From: Aurantiacibacter aquimixticola
GTDB lineage: Bacteria > Pseudomonadota > Alphaproteobacteria > Sphingomonadales > Sphingomonadaceae
Assembly (NCBI RefSeq): GCF_003605475.1
Contig: NZ_RAHX01000001.1
Coordinates: 992,001-1,056,000, forward strand
DNA: 64,000 bases
Reading direction: 5' to 3'
In this document: positions 54,281 through 64,000 of the stretch, one piece after another
Position numbering within the stretch: position 1 is the stretch's first letter
Layout of the letters: each line of letters opens with the position of its first letter
Notes under the pieces: model-generated
Told to the model about the DNA's origin: nothing
The model's database searches: none
Seen by the model: the letters and a program-made list of their open reading frames with translations, nothing else
Translations under genes and position numbers: made by a program

Positions 54281-55417
54281 ATGACTGACGTCGTTATCGC
54301 GGGTTACGTCCGCTCCCCCTTCCATCCGGCCTACAAGGGCATGCTCGCGAAGGTTCGTCCGGACGATCTGGCTGCGAACACGATCCGCGGACTGGTGGAG
54401 CGCACGGGCGTGAAGGCCGAGGATATCGAGGATATCGTCATGGGTTGCGCCTTTCCCGAAGGCGAGCAGGGTTTCAATATCGCCCGCCTCGTCGGCCTTT
54501 TGGCGGATCTTCCGCTGAGCGTCGGCGGCATCACCATGAACCGCTTTTGCGGTTCTTCGATGAGCGCGGTTCACTATGCCGCTGGCCAGATCGCGATGGG
54601 CGCTGGCGAAGTCTTCATTGCCGCGGGCGTCGAATCGATGAGCCGCGTGCCGATGACGGGCTTCAACCCGATGCCCAACCCCAGGCTCGCGGAAAAGAGC
54701 GCCGCCTATGTCGGCATGGGTGACACGGCGGAGAATGTCGCCAAGAAATACGACCTGTCGCGCGAGGCGCAGGAACAATTCGCCCTCGCCAGCCAAAAGA
54801 AGGCGGGTGAAGCCATCCAGAAGGGCAGCTTCAAGGACGAGATCGTGCCCTACACGCTCGATGACGGCACCGTGGTGGACGTCGACGGCACGCCGCGCCC
54901 GGATACCACGGCAGAAGGTCTCGCTGGCCTCAAGCTGTCTTTCGACGAACATGGTTCCGTGACTGCGGGTACTGCCTCTCCCCTGACCGACGGCTCTGCC
55001 GCACTGCTTGTCTGCAGCGCCGATTATGCCGCGAAGAACGGACTGACGGTGATCGCTAAGGTGAAGAGCATGGCGATTTCCGGCTGCGCGCCCGAAATCA
55101 TGGGCATCGGCCCGGTCGAAGCCAGCAAGAAGGCGCTCGAACGCGCCGGCCTCACCATCGACGATATTGATGTGGTCGAGCTCAACGAAGCGTTCTCCAG
55201 CCAGTCGCTCGCCTGCATCGGCGATCTTGGCATTCCGGAAGAAAAGATCAATCTCGATGGCGGCGCGATCGCCGTCGGTCACCCGCTGGGCGCGACCGGC
55301 GCGCGCATCGTCGGCAAGGCAGCCAGCCTGATGAAGCGCGAAGGCAAGAAGTACGCTCTCGCCACCCAGTGCATCGGTGGCGGACAGGGCATCGCGACGA
55401 TCCTGGAGGCCGCATAA
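54281..55417 (+). CDS. fadA: acetyl-CoA acyltransferase (thiolase)
   Basis: 378 residues. It cleaves 3-ketoacyl-CoA with CoA in the last step of beta-oxidation. The nucleophile Cys90 is in NRFCGSSM, the catalytic His334 in GGAIAVGHPLGATGAR and the second Cys364 in TQCIGGGQG, so the triad is complete. The length is slightly short for the family (about 390). It begins the plus-strand operon that runs through the HAD-ECH protein, acyl-CoA dehydrogenase and beyond. The stop shares a base with the next start (TAATG). Confidence 0.93.
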   Translation: MTDVVIAGYVRSPFHPAYKGMLAKVRPDDLAANTIRGLVERTGVKAEDIEDIVMGCAFPEGEQGFNIARLVGLLADLPLSVGGITMNRFCGSSMSAVHYAAGQIAMGAGEVFIAAGVESMSRVPMTGFNPMPNPRLAEKSAAYVGMGDTAENVAKKYDLSREAQEQFALASQKKAGEAIQKGSFKDEIVPYTLDDGTVVDVDGTPRPDTTAEGLAGLKLSFDEHGSVTAGTASPLTDGSAALLVCSADYAAKNGLTVIAKVKSMAISGCAPEIMGIGPVEASKKALERAGLTIDDIDVVELNEAFSSQSLACIGDLGIPEEKINLDGGAIAVGHPLGATGARIVGKAASLMKREGKKYALATQCIGGGQGIATILEAA

Positions 55418-57744
55418 TGGCCGACACGAAAATCGAGAAAGTCTGCGTCATCGGCGCAGGCACAATGGGTGCCGGTATCGCCGCGCAAGTCGCCAATGCA
55501 GGCGTGCCGGTGCTGCTCCTCGACATCCTTCCGAAGGATGGCGACAATCGCAACGCCGTCGCCGAAGGCGCGGTTAAGAAGATGCTCAAGACCGATCCGG
55601 CCCCGTTCATGAGCAAAAGCGCGGCCAGGCTGGTCGAAACCGGCAATATCGAGGATCACCTCGACAAGGTTGCCGAATGCGACTGGGTGGTCGAAGCGAT
55701 CATCGAACGGCTCGACATCAAGCAGAGCCTTTACGAAAAGCTGGAAAAGGTCCGCAAGCCCGGCACCGCGGTATCGTCGAACACCTCGACCATCCCGCTC
55801 GCCCAGTTGACCGACGGGCGCAGCGACGAATTCAAGCAAGACTTCCTGATCACCCACTTCTTCAATCCGCCGCGCTACATGCGGCTGATCGAGATCGTTG
55901 CCGGGCCGCAGAGCGATGCCGGCACGGTGGCGATGGTCAGGGACTTCGTCGATCGCAAGATGGGCAAGACCGTGGTCGATGCAGAGGACAGCCCCGGCTT
56001 TATCGCGAACCGCATCGGCACATTCTGGATTCAGCAGGCGGTCAACGCCGCCTTCGATCAGGGTTTGAGCGTGGAAGAAGCCGACGAAATTGCCGGTCGC
56101 CCGATGGGTGTGCCCAAGACGGGCGTGTTCGGCCTCGTTGACCTCGTCGGCATCGATCTGATGCCGCATCTGATGGAAAGTCTGACCAGCACACTGCCGA
56201 AGGACGATCCCTATCAGAAGATCGCCCGGACGGAGCCGATCGTCGAGGCGATGATAAAGGAAGGCTATACCGGCCGCAAGGGCCTTGGCGGCTTCTACCG
56301 CATGAACAAGGACGGCGGTAAGCGCGTCAAGGAAGCCAAGGATCTGAAGAGCGGTGAATATCGCGCCGCCGCGCGCCCCGGCATCGTCCGCGGTCCGGCA
56401 CAAAAGGATCTGAAGGCGCTTATCTCCGCCAAGGGCAAGGTCGGCGATTATGCCTGGGCCATTCTCGGCCCCACGCTGTCCTATGCCGCCAGCATTGTGC
56501 CGGAAGCGACGAAGACAGTGGTCGGCGTCGATGACGCGATGAAGCTCGGTTACAACTGGAAGGCTGGCCCGTTCGAAATGATCGACAAGATCGGCGCTGC
56601 CCATCTGGTCGAGCGGCTCAAGGCAGACGGTCTCCCCGTTTCCTCCATCCTCGAACAGGTTGGCGACAAGAGCTTCTACCGCGTCGAAAATGGCAAGCGC
56701 CAGTTCTTCGGCACCGATGGCGAGTATCACGACGTCGAGCGCCCCGAAGGCGTGTTGCTGCTGGAGGACATCAAGCTCTCCGCCGAGCCGCTTCTGAAAA
56801 ACGGTTCCGCCGCGCTGTGGGACGTTGGTGACGGCGTTGTCGCGCTTGAATTCACCGGCAAGATGAATGCGCTGGACGAAGCTGTCATGAAGCTGATCCA
56901 GCAGGCGATCCCGCTGGTGAAGAAGGACTACAAGGCGCTGGTCGTCTACAATGAAGGCAGCAATTTCTCCGCCGGTGCCAATCTCGGCCTCGCCATCTTC
57001 GCGATGAATATCGCAGCGTGGAGCGAAGTCGAAAAGCAGGTGAAGACGGGCCAGGATGCCTACAAGGCACTGAAATACGCGCCCTTCCCGGTCGTTTCCG
57101 CTCCGTTCGGCCTCGCGCTGGGCGGCGGTTGCGAAATCCTGCTGCACTCGGACGCTATCCAGGCCCATGCCGAAACCTACACGGGCCTTGTCGAAACCGG
57201 CGTCGGCATCATTCCGGGCTGGGGCGGCTGCGGCGAAATGCTGAGCCGCTGGATGGCCAATCCGCGCCATCCGAAGGGCCCGATGCCCGCCGTGTCCAAG
57301 GCGTTCGAGCTGATCTCCACCGCCACCGTCGCCAAGTCGGCGCATGAGGCGAAGGAGCATGGCTTCCTGCGCAAGGACGACCAGGTCACCATGAACCGTG
57401 ATCGCCTGCTCTACGATGCCAAGCAGCGCGCCCTCGCACTGGTCGATGGCTACGAAGCACCCGAGAAACCTGAATATCGCTTGCCCGGCCCGGCGGGCAA
57501 GGCGGCGCTCAAGCTGGCGGTCGACAGCTTCCGCAAGCAGGGCAAGGCCACGCCGCATGACGAGACGGTCGCAAGCGAGCTTGCGCATGTTCTCACCGGC
57601 GGCGATACCGATGTCACCGAGCTGGTGACGGAGGACCACATGCTGAAGCTTGAACGCGAAAGCTTCATGCGCCTCGCCCGCAATCCCAAGTCGCAGGCCA
57701 GGGTCGAGCACATGCTCGAAACCGGCAAGCCGCTCCGCAATTAA
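55417..57744 (+). CDS. bifunctional 3-hydroxyacyl-CoA dehydrogenase / enoyl-CoA hydratase
   Basis: 775 residues from MADTKIEKVCVIGAGTMGAG. The dehydrogenase comes first: nucleotide loop GAGTMGAG (13-20), SNTSTIPL, HFFNPPRYM and DSPGFIANRI. The crotonase-type domain lies at the C-terminus (about 470-700), with FSAGANLGL, LALGGGCEI and the hydratase Glu in LVETGVGIIPGWGG. FadB of E. coli has the reverse order; this one resembles the Bacillus FadN arrangement, so I do not use the symbol fadB. Together with the thiolase it would complete beta-oxidation. The start overlaps the thiolase stop by one base. Confidence 0.92.
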   Translation: MADTKIEKVCVIGAGTMGAGIAAQVANAGVPVLLLDILPKDGDNRNAVAEGAVKKMLKTDPAPFMSKSAARLVETGNIEDHLDKVAECDWVVEAIIERLDIKQSLYEKLEKVRKPGTAVSSNTSTIPLAQLTDGRSDEFKQDFLITHFFNPPRYMRLIEIVAGPQSDAGTVAMVRDFVDRKMGKTVVDAEDSPGFIANRIGTFWIQQAVNAAFDQGLSVEEADEIAGRPMGVPKTGVFGLVDLVGIDLMPHLMESLTSTLPKDDPYQKIARTEPIVEAMIKEGYTGRKGLGGFYRMNKDGGKRVKEAKDLKSGEYRAAARPGIVRGPAQKDLKALISAKGKVGDYAWAILGPTLSYAASIVPEATKTVVGVDDAMKLGYNWKAGPFEMIDKIGAAHLVERLKADGLPVSSILEQVGDKSFYRVENGKRQFFGTDGEYHDVERPEGVLLLEDIKLSAEPLLKNGSAALWDVGDGVVALEFTGKMNALDEAVMKLIQQAIPLVKKDYKALVVYNEGSNFSAGANLGLAIFAMNIAAWSEVEKQVKTGQDAYKALKYAPFPVVSAPFGLALGGGCEILLHSDAIQAHAETYTGLVETGVGIIPGWGGCGEMLSRWMANPRHPKGPMPAVSKAFELISTATVAKSAHEAKEHGFLRKDDQVTMNRDRLLYDAKQRALALVDGYEAPEKPEYRLPGPAGKAALKLAVDSFRKQGKATPHDETVASELAHVLTGGDTDVTELVTEDHMLKLERESFMRLARNPKSQARVEHMLETGKPLRN

Positions 57745-57764
57745 CCCCCGAAAGGACCTGTCCA

Positions 57765-59555
57765 ATGCAAGTCTACGACGCTCCCATCCGCGATATGCGC
57801 TTCAATCTCGAAGAGCTGCACAATGACGACGGCTTCGGCGATCTCGAAGGGTTCGAGGATTTCGACGAGGATATGCGCGCCGCCATCCTCGAAGAAGCGA
57901 ACAAGCTTTGCCGCGAAGTGCTGTTGCCGCTGAACTGGCCCGGCGATCAGCAGGGCTGCCGTATCGAAAACGGCGTGGTCCGCACGCCCGACGGTTTCCA
58001 GGACGCTTACAAGCAGTTCTGCGAAGGCGGCTGGGCCGGCCTTGTGGTCGACCAGAAATGGGGCGGCCAGGGTGCGCCGCACTCGCTCGCCAAGATGGTC
58101 GAGGAAATGAGCTGCTCCACCAATCTCAGCTTCGGGCTTTATCCGGGCCTGACGGGCGGTGCGATGGTCAGCCTCGATGCCTATGGCAGCGAGGACCAGA
58201 AGAACTTCTACATGCCCAAGCTGGCCAATGGCGAGTGGTCCGGAACCATGTGCCTGACGGAGCCGCATTGCGGCACCGATCTCGGCATGCTCCGCACCAA
58301 GGCGGAGCCGCAGGAAGACGGCAGCTATCTCATCACCGGCAACAAGATCTTCATCAGCGCCGGCGATCACGACCTGACGGAGAATATCATCCACCTGGTG
58401 CTCGCGCGCCTGCCCGATGCGCCCAAGGGCGTGAAGGGCATTTCGATGTTCCTCGTGCCGAAATACCTGCCGAACGACGATTACTCGCTGGGCGATTACA
58501 ACAACGTCAAGGCGACGGCGATCGAGCACAAGATGGGCCTCAAGGCGTCGGCGACCTGCCAGATGAGCTTCGACGGTTCCAAGGGTTGGCTCGTCGGCGA
58601 TCTCAATCGCGGTCTCGAAGCGATGTTCGCGATGATGAATACGGAGCGTGTCGCGGTCGGCATTCAGGGCCTGGGCGTCGGCGAAATTGCCTACCAGTCC
58701 AGCGTGTATTACGCGAAGGACCGGCTGCAGGGTCGCTCGCTTTCGGGCGTCAAGAATCCGGACGGCCCCGCCGATCCGATCATCGTCCACCCCGATGTGC
58801 GCCGCATGTTGATGACCATGCGCGCCTACAACGAAGGGTGTCGCGCGGTCTCCGCATGGGTCAGCCGCGCGCTCGATGCAGAGCACGCCGCGACCGAACC
58901 GGAAGCGCGTGCACGGGCGAAGGATTTCGTCGCGCTGATGACGCCGGTGGTGAAGGCGCTCTTCACCGATCTTGGCCATGAAGCATCGCATCTCGCGATC
59001 CAAATTCATGGTGGCCACGGCTACATCCAGGAGACCGGGATCGAGCAGTTCGCCCGCGATGCGCGCATTGCGCAGATCTATGAAGGCGCCAACGGCATTC
59101 AGGCGCTCGACCTGGTCGGCCGCAAGCTGCCCGATCGCATGGGTCGAAATCTGCGTGCTTTCTTCCACCCCGTCTCGCAATTCTGCGAGGATCACGCGCA
59201 GGACGAGGATATCGGCAAGATGGTCACCGGACTGCAGCAAAGCTTCGGCGCGCTGCAGCTGTCGACCGGCCATATCGCGCAGAAGGGCATGAAGGATCCG
59301 GAGGAAGCCGGCGCTGCCGCGTATGACTATCTCCACCTGCTCGGCTTCGTCGCCATGGGTTACTGCTTTGCGAAGGCGGCCAAGCTTGCCAAGCAGAAGC
59401 TGGCCGAGGGCACAGATGACGAACAGTTCTACAAGGCCAAGCTGACCACGGCGCAGTTCTTCTTCGATCGGCTGCTTCCGCCCGCGACCGCCAAGTTCAT
59501 GGCGATCAAGAGCGGCAAGGCCAGCATGATGGATATGCCGGCAGAAGCGTTTTGA
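57765..59555 (+). CDS. acyl-CoA dehydrogenase (large, C-terminally extended)
   Basis: 596 residues from MQVYDAPIRDMRFNLEELH. It carries out the FAD-dependent first oxidation of beta-oxidation. Motifs are MCLTEPHCGTDLG, ITGNKIFISAGDHD, and QIYEGANGIQALDL with the catalytic Glu440 at the C-terminus of the core. The extra 150 residues at the end are typical of the DMSP/FadE5-like (~600 residue) branch, not the 380-residue short- and medium-chain type. An AAAGGA ribosome-binding site precedes the ATG. Its stop overlaps the next start (TTGA). Confidence 0.93.
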   Translation: MQVYDAPIRDMRFNLEELHNDDGFGDLEGFEDFDEDMRAAILEEANKLCREVLLPLNWPGDQQGCRIENGVVRTPDGFQDAYKQFCEGGWAGLVVDQKWGGQGAPHSLAKMVEEMSCSTNLSFGLYPGLTGGAMVSLDAYGSEDQKNFYMPKLANGEWSGTMCLTEPHCGTDLGMLRTKAEPQEDGSYLITGNKIFISAGDHDLTENIIHLVLARLPDAPKGVKGISMFLVPKYLPNDDYSLGDYNNVKATAIEHKMGLKASATCQMSFDGSKGWLVGDLNRGLEAMFAMMNTERVAVGIQGLGVGEIAYQSSVYYAKDRLQGRSLSGVKNPDGPADPIIVHPDVRRMLMTMRAYNEGCRAVSAWVSRALDAEHAATEPEARARAKDFVALMTPVVKALFTDLGHEASHLAIQIHGGHGYIQETGIEQFARDARIAQIYEGANGIQALDLVGRKLPDRMGRNLRAFFHPVSQFCEDHAQDEDIGKMVTGLQQSFGALQLSTGHIAQKGMKDPEEAGAAAYDYLHLLGFVAMGYCFAKAAKLAKQKLAEGTDDEQFYKAKLTTAQFFFDRLLPPATAKFMAIKSGKASMMDMPAEAF

Positions 59556-60457
59556 CGGTCGATGAGTTCCGGGGGCGCCTGCGCGTCCCCGCCATCGCCG
59601 CGCCGATGTTCCTCGTTTCCGGGCCGGACCTGGTCGTGGAGACGTGTAAGGCGGGCCTTTGCGGCACCTTCCCGGCTCTCAACCAGCGCACCAGCGAGGG
59701 GTTCGAGGACTGGCTGAAAGAAATCCAGGATCGTCTTGGCGACGATGACGCGCCCTATGGCGTCAACCTGATCGTCCACAAGTCGAACCCGCGCGTACAG
59801 GCCGATCTGGAATTGTGCGTGAAGCACAAGGTGCCGCTGATCATCACTTCGCTGGGCGCGGTGAGCGATCTGGTGGATGCGGTGCATTCCTATGGCGGGC
59901 TAGTCTTCCATGACGTGATCCAGCGCCGCCACGCCGAAAAAGCCGTGGAAGCGGGCGTCGATGGCGTCATCGCCGTCGCCGCGGGAGCAGGCGGGCATGC
60001 CGGAACCTACAGCCCCTTCGCGCTGGTGAGCGAGATCCGCGATTTCTTCGACGGCGCGGTCATCCTGTCTGGCTCGATGAGCCACGGCAGCCACGTGCTT
60101 GCCGCGGAAGCGATGGGCGCGGATTTCGGCTATCTCGGCAGCCATTTCATCGCCACGACGGAAAGCATGGCCTCCGACGGTCAGAAGGACATGATGATCA
60201 AGTCCGCCGCCAAGGATATTACATACACCGACAAGGTGACCGGCGTCGGCGCGAATTTCATGACCGAAAGTCTGAACGCGGCTTCCATGGAACACGCGCC
60301 GGGCGAAATGTCGCTGAACGAAGAGGCCAAGGCCTGGAAGACCATCTGGTCCGCCGGTCATGGTGTCGGTGCCATCCGCGACGTCCGACCGACCAAGGCC
60401 ATCTGCGAGCAGCTGATCGCCGAATACGATGCGGCAAAGGCGAAAATCTGCGGGTGA
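59552..60457 (+). CDS. nitronate monooxygenase-family flavoprotein
   Basis: 301 residues with a TTG start overlapping the acyl-CoA dehydrogenase stop (TTGA). A TIM-barrel FMN fold: the N-terminal VPAIAAPMFLVSGPDLVVE (sheet with PMF), LNQRTSEGF, then AGAGGHAGTYSPFALV and GSMSHGSHVLAAEAMGADF (phosphate-binding GSM...). The family includes nitronate monooxygenase and 2-nitropropane dioxygenase; members also occur beside polyketide and fatty-acid genes as enoyl reductases. Its role here is unknown, but the coupling to an acyl-CoA dehydrogenase argues for fatty-acid or lipid substrates. The TTG start is inferred from the overlap. Confidence 0.85.
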   Translation: MTVDEFRGRLRVPAIAAPMFLVSGPDLVVETCKAGLCGTFPALNQRTSEGFEDWLKEIQDRLGDDDAPYGVNLIVHKSNPRVQADLELCVKHKVPLIITSLGAVSDLVDAVHSYGGLVFHDVIQRRHAEKAVEAGVDGVIAVAAGAGGHAGTYSPFALVSEIRDFFDGAVILSGSMSHGSHVLAAEAMGADFGYLGSHFIATTESMASDGQKDMMIKSAAKDITYTDKVTGVGANFMTESLNAASMEHAPGEMSLNEEAKAWKTIWSAGHGVGAIRDVRPTKAICEQLIAEYDAAKAKICG

Positions 60458-60466
60458 TCGGCACGA

Positions 60467-61561
60467 ATGCGTGTAGCACCCGTTGCCATGGCAATGGGTA
60501 GCAATTCAGAACGGACCGTGCCGCGCATCGAGGCCATCGCCACCGCGGTGCCCGAATCAGATGTGCATGCGCGCTACACCAGCTGGGCCGAAGCGCAGCT
60601 GGGCAAGACGCGCGAGGCGGCGCTGTTCGCGCGGATGGAGCAGCGCGGCGGTATCGCCCATCGCTATTCCGTGTTGAACGAACGCGATGCCGCCATGGAT
60701 TTCGGCAGTTTCTACGCAAATGGCAGCTCGCCTGGGACTGGCGAGCGCATGCGCCGCTATGGCGAAGCTGCTCCCGATCTCGCCTTGAAGGCCGCCGAAA
60801 AATTGCCTTCCACCGATGGCGTCACACACCTCGTCATCGCCAGTTGCACCGGCTTCATGGCACCCGGCCTCGATCAGGTGGTGGCCCGCAAGCTCGGCCT
60901 CGCTCCCGATGTCGAGCGTGTGAGCATCGGCTTCATGGGTTGCTATGCCGGTGTGACCTTGCTGCGTACGGCCGCGCATATCGTGCGATCCGACCCCACG
61001 GCACGCGTGCTCGCCATCGCGGTGGAGCTTTGCACGTTGCACCTGCAGGAGACCGACGATCTCGAAAGCCTGCTTGCCATGGGCCAGTTTGCCGACGGGG
61101 CAGCCGCCGCACTGGTGAGCGCGAACGGTGAAGGACTGGTGCTGGGCGAAGGCCTATCTGCGGCGCTGGAGGAAAGCGCCGATCTCATCACCTGGCATGT
61201 CGGCGATACCGGTTTTGCCATGCACCTTTCCGGCGCGGTGCCCGGACGGCTGGCGGAAGCGCTTGAGGACAGCGAGCTGATCGCAACCATTTCCGGCGAG
61301 GAAAAGCCGCAGGCATGGGCCGTGCACCCTGGCGGCAAGTCGATACTCGACGCCGTGGAGCGCGGGCTGCAACTGCCAGCCGACGCCCTCACCGCCTCGC
61401 GCGGCGTGCTCAGCGATTTCGGCAATATGTCGTCGGCTACAGTGATCTTCGTGATGGAACGGCTGATGCGCGAGAAGCCCGTAAGCGGCGTTGCGCTCGC
61501 CTTCGGTCCCGGCCTCGCGATGGAAGGCGTCCGCTTCGGCTGGACGAATGGCGATGCTTGA
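60467..61561 (+). CDS. type III polyketide synthase
   Basis: 364 residues. The catalytic triad of the chalcone/stilbene synthase superfamily is present: Cys159 in GFMGCYAG, His287 in WAVHPGGKS and Asn320 in FGNMSSATV. The N-terminus is a little longer than needed; later ATGs would give about 355 residues. It condenses an acyl-CoA starter with malonyl-CoA to alkylresorcinols or alkylpyrones; the starter here is likely a fatty acyl-CoA, given the upstream beta-oxidation genes. It is followed without gap by a methyltransferase and a flavoprotein. Confidence 0.92.
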   Translation: MRVAPVAMAMGSNSERTVPRIEAIATAVPESDVHARYTSWAEAQLGKTREAALFARMEQRGGIAHRYSVLNERDAAMDFGSFYANGSSPGTGERMRRYGEAAPDLALKAAEKLPSTDGVTHLVIASCTGFMAPGLDQVVARKLGLAPDVERVSIGFMGCYAGVTLLRTAAHIVRSDPTARVLAIAVELCTLHLQETDDLESLLAMGQFADGAAAALVSANGEGLVLGEGLSAALEESADLITWHVGDTGFAMHLSGAVPGRLAEALEDSELIATISGEEKPQAWAVHPGGKSILDAVERGLQLPADALTASRGVLSDFGNMSSATVIFVMERLMREKPVSGVALAFGPGLAMEGVRFGWTNGDA

Positions 61562-62237
61562 GGAGCGGCGCCAGACCGAAGAACTGATGGACGATCCGGC
61601 ATTGCCGGAGGCGACCTATAGCGCGGTACTGGCCGATCTTTCCAAAGTCAATCGCGTCACGATGGCGTATCGCCCTACCCTCGCCTTTCTCGATCGCGCA
61701 CTAGCCGATCGACAGAAATTCACGCTGCTCGATGTCGGATTCGGGCAGGGCGACATGCTGCGCGAAATCGCTCGCTGGGCAAAGCGCAAGGGAAAGCAGG
61801 CCGATCTGGTCGGCATCGACCTCAATCCGCGCAGCGCCGCATCGGCACGGGACGCCACGCCGCGCGACATGCCGATAGACTATCGCACTGGCGACTATGC
61901 GGATGTGGCGCGCAACTGGGACGTCGTCGTCTCCAGTCTCGTCGCGCATCACATGAGCCGCGAGGAAGTGCTCCTGTTCCTTCGCTTCATGGAAGCAGAA
62001 GCGCGCGCCGGGTGGTTCGTCAACGATCTGCATCGCCACGCGGTCAGTTATCTCGGCTATCCGGTCCTGGCCGGTCTTGCGCGGTGGCATCCCATCGTGC
62101 GCGCCGACGGTCACACGTCGATTGCGCGATCCTATCGCCCCGCCGAGTGGGATAGCCTGCTTGCAGAGGCCGAAATCACCCAGGCTTCCGTCGAACGCCA
62201 CTTCCCGTTCCGGTTATGCGTTTCCCGCATCCGCTGA
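61554..62237 (+). CDS. SAM-dependent methyltransferase of the type III PKS cluster
   Basis: 227 residues from MLEERRQTEELM; an ATG two codons earlier (61548) is also possible, both overlapping the PKS end. The class I fold has LLDVGFGQGDM (SAM motif I), LVGIDLNPRSA (motif II) and the family's VVVSSLVAHHM (motif post II). It is related to the UbiE/small-molecule methyltransferases. The likely target is the phenolic product of the PKS (O- or C-methylation); srsB of Streptomyces does this in an analogous cluster. Ends 22 bases into the next gene. Confidence 0.87.
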   Translation: MLEERRQTEELMDDPALPEATYSAVLADLSKVNRVTMAYRPTLAFLDRALADRQKFTLLDVGFGQGDMLREIARWAKRKGKQADLVGIDLNPRSAASARDATPRDMPIDYRTGDYADVARNWDVVVSSLVAHHMSREEVLLFLRFMEAEARAGWFVNDLHRHAVSYLGYPVLAGLARWHPIVRADGHTSIARSYRPAEWDSLLAEAEITQASVERHFPFRLCVSRIR

Positions 62238-63316
62238 TCCTCGGCGCAGGCCCGGCCGGATGCGCCGCCGCAATCACGCTCGGCGCCTATGGGCAGGATT
62301 GCACGCTGCTGGACCGCAGCGAGCCGGTCGGCGATCCGCTATGCGGCGGCTTCCTGAGCTGGAGAACGGCGGAGCAGCTCGACATGCTCGGCGTGGATAT
62401 CCGCAAGCTCGGCGCGCATCCCGTCGAAAAACTCTGGCTGTTCGATGGCGGCCGATCGAGCGAGGTGGCTCTTCCCCATCAGGCTTTCGGCCTCAGTCGC
62501 CACGCGCTAGACACCGAGATGCGACGGATGGCCGTGGCGACGGGAGCGCAATTCGTCGTCGATACCGTGCGCGGGCTCGAAAACGGCACAGTGACCGGCG
62601 CGCAGGCTGAGTACGAGGCGCCGACACTTTTCCTCGCCACCGGCAAGCATGATGTGCGTGGTGAAAGCCGCCCGCGGCACTCGCCCGACACCACCATCGG
62701 TATTCGATTGCGTCTGCCCGCCTCGCCCGCTCGCAATCGCCTGCTGGATGGCGCCATCGAATTGCACCTCTTTCCGGGCGGGTATGTCGGCATCGTCGTG
62801 CAGGAAGGCGGATCCGCCAATATCTGCCTCGCCGTGCGCAAATCCGCTCTCACCGAGGTCGGTGGATCGCCCAAGGCCTTGTTCGAGCGCCTTGCCGATG
62901 GCAATTCCGCCCTGGCGGAGAGGCTCGGCGATGGCTGGCAGGGCGCGCAGCTCGATACGATCGGCGCGGTGCCCTATGGCTGGATATGTCGCGACACCAG
63001 CCCCGGCGTCTATCGCCTGGGCGATCAGGCGGCGGTGATCCCGTCGCTGGCGGGCGAAGGCAATTCCATCGCCATTGCCAGCGGAATGGCGGCGGCCAGC
63101 GCCTATATCGCGGGACGCAGCGCGCCGGAATACCAGCGCGATTTCGCCGCCCGCGCGCGGCGACCGGTGCGCCTCGCATCGGCTCTGTGGCATGCAGCGG
63201 AAACGCGGATAGGTGCGCGCGCTGCCATCGCGCTCTCCCACCTGTCGCCCGGCATCATCGCGTCTTTCGCGCAAGGTGCAAGGATTCCGCCCGCCCGCTC
63301 CCTTGCACAGGTGTAA
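62216..63316 (+). CDS. FAD-dependent oxidoreductase (geranylgeranyl reductase / p-hydroxybenzoate hydroxylase-like)
   Basis: 366 residues from MRFPHPLILGAGPAGCAAAI. The FAD Rossmann motif is GAGPAGCAAAI (10-20), a second conserved segment GDQAAVIPSLAGEGNSIAIA (the GD...P FAD motif) lies near 280, and FLATGKHDVRG is the middle motif. It belongs to the flavin monooxygenase/GGR group. In srsABC-type clusters the flavoprotein (srsC) hydroxylates the alkylresorcinol on the way to an alkylquinone; the same role is plausible here. It overlaps the methyltransferase gene by 22 bases. Confidence 0.85.
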   Translation: MRFPHPLILGAGPAGCAAAITLGAYGQDCTLLDRSEPVGDPLCGGFLSWRTAEQLDMLGVDIRKLGAHPVEKLWLFDGGRSSEVALPHQAFGLSRHALDTEMRRMAVATGAQFVVDTVRGLENGTVTGAQAEYEAPTLFLATGKHDVRGESRPRHSPDTTIGIRLRLPASPARNRLLDGAIELHLFPGGYVGIVVQEGGSANICLAVRKSALTEVGGSPKALFERLADGNSALAERLGDGWQGAQLDTIGAVPYGWICRDTSPGVYRLGDQAAVIPSLAGEGNSIAIASGMAAASAYIAGRSAPEYQRDFAARARRPVRLASALWHAAETRIGARAAIALSHLSPGIIASFAQGARIPPARSLAQV

Positions 63317-63375: not shown

Positions 63376-64000
63376 ATGGCAAAAATTCAGGTCAAGAATC
63401 CGGTCGTCGAACTCGACGGCGACGAAATGACGAAGATCATCTGGCAGTGGATCCGCGAGCGGCTGATTCTGCCCTATCTCGATGTCGACCTGAAATATTA
63501 CGATCTCTCGATCGAAAAGCGTGACGAGACGGACGACCAGATCACCGTCGACGCCGCAAATGCCATCAAGGAACACGGCGTCGGCGTGAAGTGCGCCACG
63601 ATCACTCCCGATGAAGCGCGGGTCGAGGAATTCGACCTCAAGAGCATGTGGCGCTCGCCCAACGGCACGATCCGCAACATCCTCGGCGGTGTCGTCTTCC
63701 GTGAGCCGATCGTGATCGACAACGTCCCGCGCCTGGTGCCCGGCTGGACCGACCCCATCGTCGTCGGCCGCCATGCGTTCGGCGACCAGTACCGCGCCAC
63801 CGACACGCTTATTCCGGGCGCCGGCAAGCTGCGCCTCGTCTTCGAAGGCGCGGATGGCGAGAAGATCGATCTCGACGTGTTCGAATTCGAAAAGCCCGGC
63901 GTCGCCATGGCGATGTACAATCTTGACGAGAGCATTCGCGACTTTGCCCGTGCCAGCTTCAATTACGGCCTCGACCGCGGCTGGCCCGTCTACCTTTCCA
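63376..64000 (+). CDS. icd: isocitrate dehydrogenase (NADP), partial at window end
   Basis: The first 208 residues, running off the right edge. [19 protein letters not shown] is the usual N-terminus of the eukaryote-like (type II, about 405 residue) NADP-IDH found in alphaproteobacteria. Substrate and nucleotide segments include [19 protein letters not shown] (cited by [12 protein letters not shown]) and [12 protein letters not shown]. The enzyme converts isocitrate to 2-oxoglutarate in the TCA cycle. It starts 59 bases after the flavoprotein stop, probably from its own promoter. The C-terminal half is missing only because the window ends. Confidence 0.93.

Follow-up and report, generated by a model that had tools for sequence, protein, structure and literature searches.

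A conserved three-gene unit of Aurantiacibacter aquimixticola and other Sphingomonadaceae, encoding a type III polyketide synthase, a methyltransferase and a flavoprotein, as a candidate phenolic lipid locus

A stretch of 64,000 nucleotides of the Aurantiacibacter aquimixticola genome (contig NZ_RAHX01000001.1, positions 992,001 to 1,056,000; hereafter, the window) contains three consecutive genes on the forward strand, coding for a type III polyketide synthase (PKS), a class I S-adenosylmethionine (SAM)-dependent methyltransferase (MT) and a flavin adenine dinucleotide (FAD)-dependent oxidoreductase:

60467-61561, + strand: type III PKS, 364 aa; start at ATG 60467, with alternatives at 60488 or 60494
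61193..61195, + strand: codon of PKS residue Trp243, at the aligned position of ArsB Trp281
61548-62237, + strand: class I SAM-dependent MT, 229 aa (227 aa if started at ATG 61554)
62216-63316, + strand: FAD-dependent oxidoreductase, 366 aa, with a flavin-monooxygenase/geranylgeranyl-reductase (GGR)/halogenase fold; proposed ring hydroxylase

The PKS and MT genes overlap by 8-14 bp, depending on the start codon chosen, and the MT and FAD genes by 22 bp. An earlier, sequence-only reading of this DNA had described three overlapping genes for a PKS with a Cys159/His287/Asn320 triad, a SAM methyltransferase and a FAD enzyme, and the open reading frames, the domain scores and the triad confirmed the presence of this trio.

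The PKS scored 81 and 83 bits against the Pfam families Chal_sti_synt_N and Chal_sti_synt_C (PF00195 and PF02797; cut-off 27), and this chalcone/stilbene synthase domain is accompanied by the triad Cys159, His287 and Asn320, which was kept in all 110 rows of a PKS alignment (loci L002-L111, L002 being the genome of the window; species may recur among the rows). Its AlphaFold2 model (pLDDT 91.7) adopts a chalcone/stilbene-synthase fold. A search with PF02797 retrieved no second type III PKS in the 2.55-Mb genome to which the window belongs. The MT scored 37.8 bits against Methyltransf_25 (cut-off 27) and was likewise over the cut-off of Methyltransf_11; in Pfam and NCBIfam, it matched class I families only and no isoprenylcysteine methyltransferase (ICMT) family. 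The FAD enzyme was retrieved by FAD_binding_3 (27.8 bits; cut-off 22) and Pyr_redox_2 (28.4 bits; cut-off 26.1), and its overall fold is that of a class A flavin monooxygenase of the PHBH/3HB6H type.

The three genes stay together in related genomes; a failure to do so had been named by the sequence-only reading as a refutation. A genome scan yielded 533 confirmed loci, the best 80 of which, ranging from Aurantiacibacter, Erythrobacter and relatives to Sphingomonas and Sphingobium, were compared. In 78 of these 80 closest loci, the PKS, MT and FAD genes lay side by side in the same orientation, indicating that the arrangement is not due to chance; one exception is cut at a contig end (L034) and the other has the PKS and FAD genes without the MT gene (L104). 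In addition, a sample of 149 genomes of the family, each at least 90% complete, was searched with the PKS (match at E 1e-3) and with the MT and the FAD enzyme (cut-off 1e-15). A PKS match was found in 98 genomes. In 81 of them, the PKS was of the trio type, counting one broken copy (G022) and one piece at a contig edge (G136); the other 17 matches were distant. The MT and the FAD enzyme were each found in 80 of the 149 genomes, every one of which was among the 81 with a trio-type PKS. The order PKS-MT-FAD within 500 bp was seen in 72 of the 81. The other nine displayed an altered order or strand (G117, G039, G066 and G057), the MT gene on another contig (G027), a wider gap (G133), decay (G022) or, probably, contig fragmentation (G092 and G118). 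As the genes co-occur even when dispersed, they point to one pathway. Within the own genus, the trio was present in two of the three genomes of the family sample. In a second sample, drawn in another way from the order, 18 of the 50 own-family genomes contained the FAD enzyme (E <1e-20), and no FAD match better than 1e-6 was found in its 48 genomes of other families. What is new is the wide presence and co-occurrence of the trio genes among these relatives; the cluster itself is of a known kind. The distances of the PKS, MT and FAD sequences were correlated (Spearman 0.60, 0.60 and 0.48 over 78 loci), but as relatedness was uncontrolled, these values are given no weight. In the genomes G027, G057, G039, G117 and G066, the MT gene was displaced, lying on the other strand or on another contig or being reordered, yet all three genes were kept in the genome. 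The decayed trio of G022 (C1:1986000-1996000) lies beside icd and consists of a fragmented PKS gene and a partial flavoprotein gene, with no MT gene found.

The genes of the trio also occur outside the family. Among 289 genomes sampled from the class, at least 11 had the flavoprotein at a cut-off of 1e-12; three of these are members of the own family. The eight class genomes outside the family, inspected over 4 kb each, showed both the PKS and the MT gene beside the FAD gene in six cases, the MT gene only in one and the PKS gene only in another. In a sample of the phylum, the PKS (1e-20) was present in 26 of 299 genomes, with identities from 30 to 100%. Furthermore, trio genes were retrieved from plasmid records of Microvirga, Methylobacterium, Roseomonas, Paludisphaera, Deinococcus, Psychrobacter and Paenibacillus; the PKS gene faces the other two in Psychrobacter, and the Paenibacillus genes are unannotated and were found by tblastn. 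A compact three-gene route recurs from Sphingomonadaceae to Paludisphaera, Microvirga, Methylobacterium, Roseomonas, Psychrobacter and Paenibacillus.

A phylogenetic tree of 46 PKS rows, drawn without a SrsA or HidC row and rooted for display only, was split with a support of 96/91. On one side, 25 rows comprised the PKS of the window, the alphaproteobacterial, planctomycetal, Deinococcus, Psychrobacter and Paenibacillus enzymes, PKS18 and the Ectocarpus enzyme; on the other side, 21 rows comprised the BpsA-type, ICMT-partnered, Rhizobium, DpgA, PhlD-like and Streptomyces enzymes. The PKS of the window was grouped with PKS18 and the PKSs of planctomycetal trios. Not every fork within the trio side is resolved, the DpgA and PhlD-like rows were flagged as long branches, and the Psychrobacter, BpsA-type and Ectocarpus rows have an unusual composition. 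The sequence-only reading had named as a refutation the placement of the PKS in an unrelated branch without fatty-acyl-accepting members; no such placement was seen, although the PKS stands apart from the BpsA type and the relation to SrsA falls outside the rows of this tree.

Known systems were compared according to passages of the papers cited. HidABC, SrsABC, ArsB/C and the assayed planctomycetal enzymes were likened to the trio by published description, not by sequence; neither HidC nor a G. maris reference enzyme was named among the 120 matches listed in each of two protein searches. The closest described operons are the hierridin-type hidABC cluster and the planctomycetal operon, not srsABC. 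The hidABC cluster of picocyanobacteria also combines an MT, an oxidoreductase and a type III PKS, and the order hidC-hidA-hidB, as in the window, occurs in cyanobacteria (PMC8086630). Of 96 planctomycetal PKS genes, 58 are located in MT-oxidoreductase-PKS operons (PMC10896814). This operon was compared through Paludisphaera only, which is not among the assayed strains. All three proteins of Paludisphaera (L112) are homologous to those of the window, with 40% identity, 202 bits and E 2e-65 for the PKS, 32%, 80 bits and E 1e-21 for the MT, and 27%, 60 bits and E 4e-13 for the FAD enzyme (19-protein database), whereas its gene order is MT-FAD-PKS instead of PKS-MT-FAD. The ars genes of Azotobacter, encoding type III PKSs that make alkylresorcinols or pyrones and having the Trp position in common with the trio through ArsB, include dedicated type I fatty acid synthase (FAS) subunits, whereas no FAS subunit genes were seen beside the trio of the window. 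As for srsABC of S. griseus, SrsB is ICMT-like, whereas the MT of the window belongs to class I. In addition, SrsA falls in clade 2.22 of a published phylogeny, and HidC, ArsB, ArsC and PKS18 fall in clade 3 (PMC8086630). The earlier statement that the window holds the same enzyme set as srsABC is therefore not supported as homology; the resemblance to srsABC and to pkqABC of M. smegmatis, which join a PKS, an MT and a hydroxylase/oxidoreductase to give alkylresorcinol-derived quinones, is a functional one. As the sequence-only reading had remarked, such clusters are little studied in sphingomonads: neither a functional study of the trio nor a description of its product in these bacteria was found in the literature searched, which left out most subscription journals, and the papers PMC9716278 and PMC13292080 merely list, in the passages concerned, an antiSMASH T3PKS region.

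The trio probably makes a methylated, hydroxylated alkylresorcinol-type phenolic lipid that is hierridin-like and possibly oxidisable to an alkylquinone; a fatty-acyl-derived phenolic lipid had also been put forward by the sequence-only reading and stands as the most likely product. We infer the substrate, the cyclisation, the tailoring order, the reaction of the FAD enzyme and the final product as follows. The PKS would load a long-chain acyl starter on Cys159 and add three malonyl units, upon which aldol condensation would close the ring to give a 5-alkylresorcinol. The class I MT would then methylate a ring carbon or a hydroxyl group, and the FAD enzyme would hydroxylate the ring to an alkyl-hydroquinol. 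The latter step is proposed because of the flavoprotein fold and the structure of hierridin, which has two O-methyl groups and one extra ring oxygen. Both methylation sites are kept, since HidA is described as acting on phenolic OH groups and co-expression of the MT/FAD pair of G. maris introduced a single methyl group, probably on carbon (PMC10896814). This proposal would be in line with the homologous trio of Paludisphaera, the gene order of hid, the grouping in the PKS tree, the fold of the FAD enzyme and the C15/C17 alkylresorcinols made by planctomycetal PKSs; of the six enzymes assayed in that study, those from G. maris, R. baltica, S. maiorica and 'S. ferox' are described as alkylresorcinol producers (PMC10896814). 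It would also suit Trp243 of the PKS, which aligns with PKS11 W230 and with the position of ArsB Trp281 and is a Trp in all 110 rows of the alignment; ArsB Trp281 is described in citing papers as essential for resorcinol formation (PMC5916927, PMC9927152).

Several points weigh against this proposal, the case for which is built from genes, active-site residues, co-occurrence, fold and homology to the planctomycetal trio. The same Trp is found in every one of the 14 ICMT-type rows, in the BpsA-type row of B. velezensis, in a Rhizobium row, in DpgA and PKS11, and, by report, in SrsA (PMC9927152 or PMC5916927). A Trp at the ArsB 281 position is therefore permissive only for an alkylresorcinol synthase and does not tell the product types apart. 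Likewise, the positions lining the PKS18 tunnel are conserved as T, A, C or S in the trio PKSs, but a PhlD-like row has T, A and S there, so that these residues do not discriminate either. Both residue tests were rejected as markers of product type, being conserved but common to other product classes. In the planctomycetal study, the enzymes expressed in C. glutamicum gave no alkylquinone, and the oxidoreductase was not assigned a definite role (PMC10896814). Finally, the PKS and MT of the Deinococcus trio are homologous to those of the window, whereas its flavoprotein had no significant match to the FAD enzyme (E 2.1; 19-protein database).

For the FAD enzyme, side-chain saturation of the geranylgeranyl-reductase kind or halogenation is rather unlikely as an alternative to ring hydroxylation. 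Its best NCBIfam match was indeed the geranylgeranyl-reductase superfamily TIGR02032, but the score of 74 bits remained under the cut-off of 158.8. Moreover, the WxWxIP motif of flavin-dependent halogenases was present in none of the 109 FAD rows, the fold is of the aromatic-hydroxylase/epoxidase kind, with aromatic hydroxylases and squalene epoxidase within a few Z units, and the extra ring oxygen of hierridins would fit a hydroxylase. Less likely still is an alkylpyrone synthase, with the MT and the FAD enzyme decorating a long-chain alpha-pyrone. PKS18, the nearest PDB sequence to the PKS of the window, lies on the same side of the tree and is described as a pyrone maker, which speaks against a resorcinol, as are BcsA and BcsB of Bacillus (PMC8086630), and the Trp at the ArsB position is shared with the BpsA-type row. 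Nevertheless, PKS18 and the Ectocarpus enzyme carry Leu, not Trp, at this position, planctomycetal PKSs of such operons gave resorcinols (PMC10896814), and a ring hydroxylase and a C-methyltransferase would suit a phenol better.

A respiratory, electron-carrying polyketide quinone is of about the same low probability, if not slightly lower. Oxidation of the proposed hydroquinol could yield a quinone, and a PKS-MT-oxidoreductase operon, named pkqABC in mycobacteria, is reported to produce polyketide quinones for respiration in M. smegmatis and in a Streptomyces (PMC9927152); however, the trio is missing from many genomes of the family, including one of the three of the own genus, and a PKS mutant of S. 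maiorica grew normally, with no growth or beta-lactam phenotype reported (PMC10896814). The tunnel residues shared with the PhlD-like row, which weaken the alkylresorcinol proposal, strengthen the case for a short-starter or malonyl-only aromatic compound of the phloroglucinol or tetrahydroxynaphthalene type, as does the Ectocarpus PKS (4b0n), which is both a sequence and a structural neighbour of the PKS of the window. Yet, the PhlD-like and DpgA rows, both flagged as long branches, are on the opposite side of the tree, and such a product is highly improbable. The product of the trio and its role are open to experiment, since the unit is small and single-copy in the genome of the window, with natural absences and one decayed copy among relatives.

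A second system occurs in the same family. All 17 distant PKSs of the family sample (L132-L148) adjoin a gene of the ICMT type, and when an ICMT-type PKS served as the query, strong matches (E <1e-70) came only from those same 17 genomes, among the matches listed (down to 1e-12). We take these pairs to be of the BpsA-BpsB type, resembling the trio in having a type III PKS and one MT but differing in the PKS branch and the kind of MT. None of the 149 genomes contained both a trio PKS and an ICMT-type PKS (hypergeometric P 5e-5 over 91 genera, 54 with the trio and 10 with ICMT, and 5e-7 over the 149 genomes, values that ignore shared ancestry and deeper relatedness). Speculatively, sphingomonads may keep one of two interchangeable polyketide-lipid systems, PKS with class I MT and FAD enzyme or PKS with ICMT, but not both, because either would fill one and the same role in the membrane, which might be that of a second redox quinone, derived from a polyketide, alongside ubiquinone. 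The apparent exclusion between the two MT types offers a specific hypothesis on functional equivalence. The 11 ICMT-type PKSs placed in the tree formed two separate groups.

The trio is flanked by genes that fall outside the conserved unit:

54281..60457, + strand: fadA, fadB-type, acyl-CoA dehydrogenase and NMO/FabK-like genes (Pfam/NCBIfam)
63376..63999, + strand: icd-type gene, running past the end of the window

The NMO/FabK-like gene, preceded by the fadA, fadB-type and acyl-CoA dehydrogenase genes, ends at 60457, 9 bp before the ATG of the PKS. The sequence-only reading had taken this beta-oxidation operon as a hint of fatty acyl-CoA starters. The operon indeed lies directly upstream in the window, but the NMO-like gene directly preceded the PKS gene in only 19 of the 80 closest loci (14 from Aurantiacibacter or Erythrobacter, four from uncultured Sphingomonadaceae and one from an Alphaproteobacteria metagenome-assembled genome), a fraction that is, if anything, generous to the linkage, as these loci are the closest relatives. 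Beta-oxidation linkage was consequently rejected as a general guide to the starter in the family. The icd-type gene, presumably coding for isocitrate dehydrogenase as named from its sequence, immediately followed the trio in 30 of the 80 loci, with other neighbours elsewhere, and icd was located in 145 of the 149 family genomes. Since the neighbours vary while the trio persists, the trio is the unit and the fad operon a local neighbour. When 1234 open reading frames from the 80 loci were clustered, clusters other than those of the trio reached 23 loci at most, although this clustering was coarse, the trio itself being under-called at 60, 55 and 37 loci. In the clade of the window, the 9-bp spacing may allow transcriptional read-through from the fad operon into the trio.

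Some loci showed further particularities. The trio flavoprotein of Microvirga terrae is annotated as a short protein of 229 aa (L114:5799-6488), and a type III PKS on a Photobacterium damselae plasmid is annotated as two adjoining pieces (L131:3941-4985). A gene for a DHA2-family efflux pump overlaps the start of the PKS gene in the Methylobacterium oryzae trio (L115:2388-4028), and a gene for a pump of the same family lies beside the ICMT-type pair of Sphingomonas parapaucimobilis (L126).

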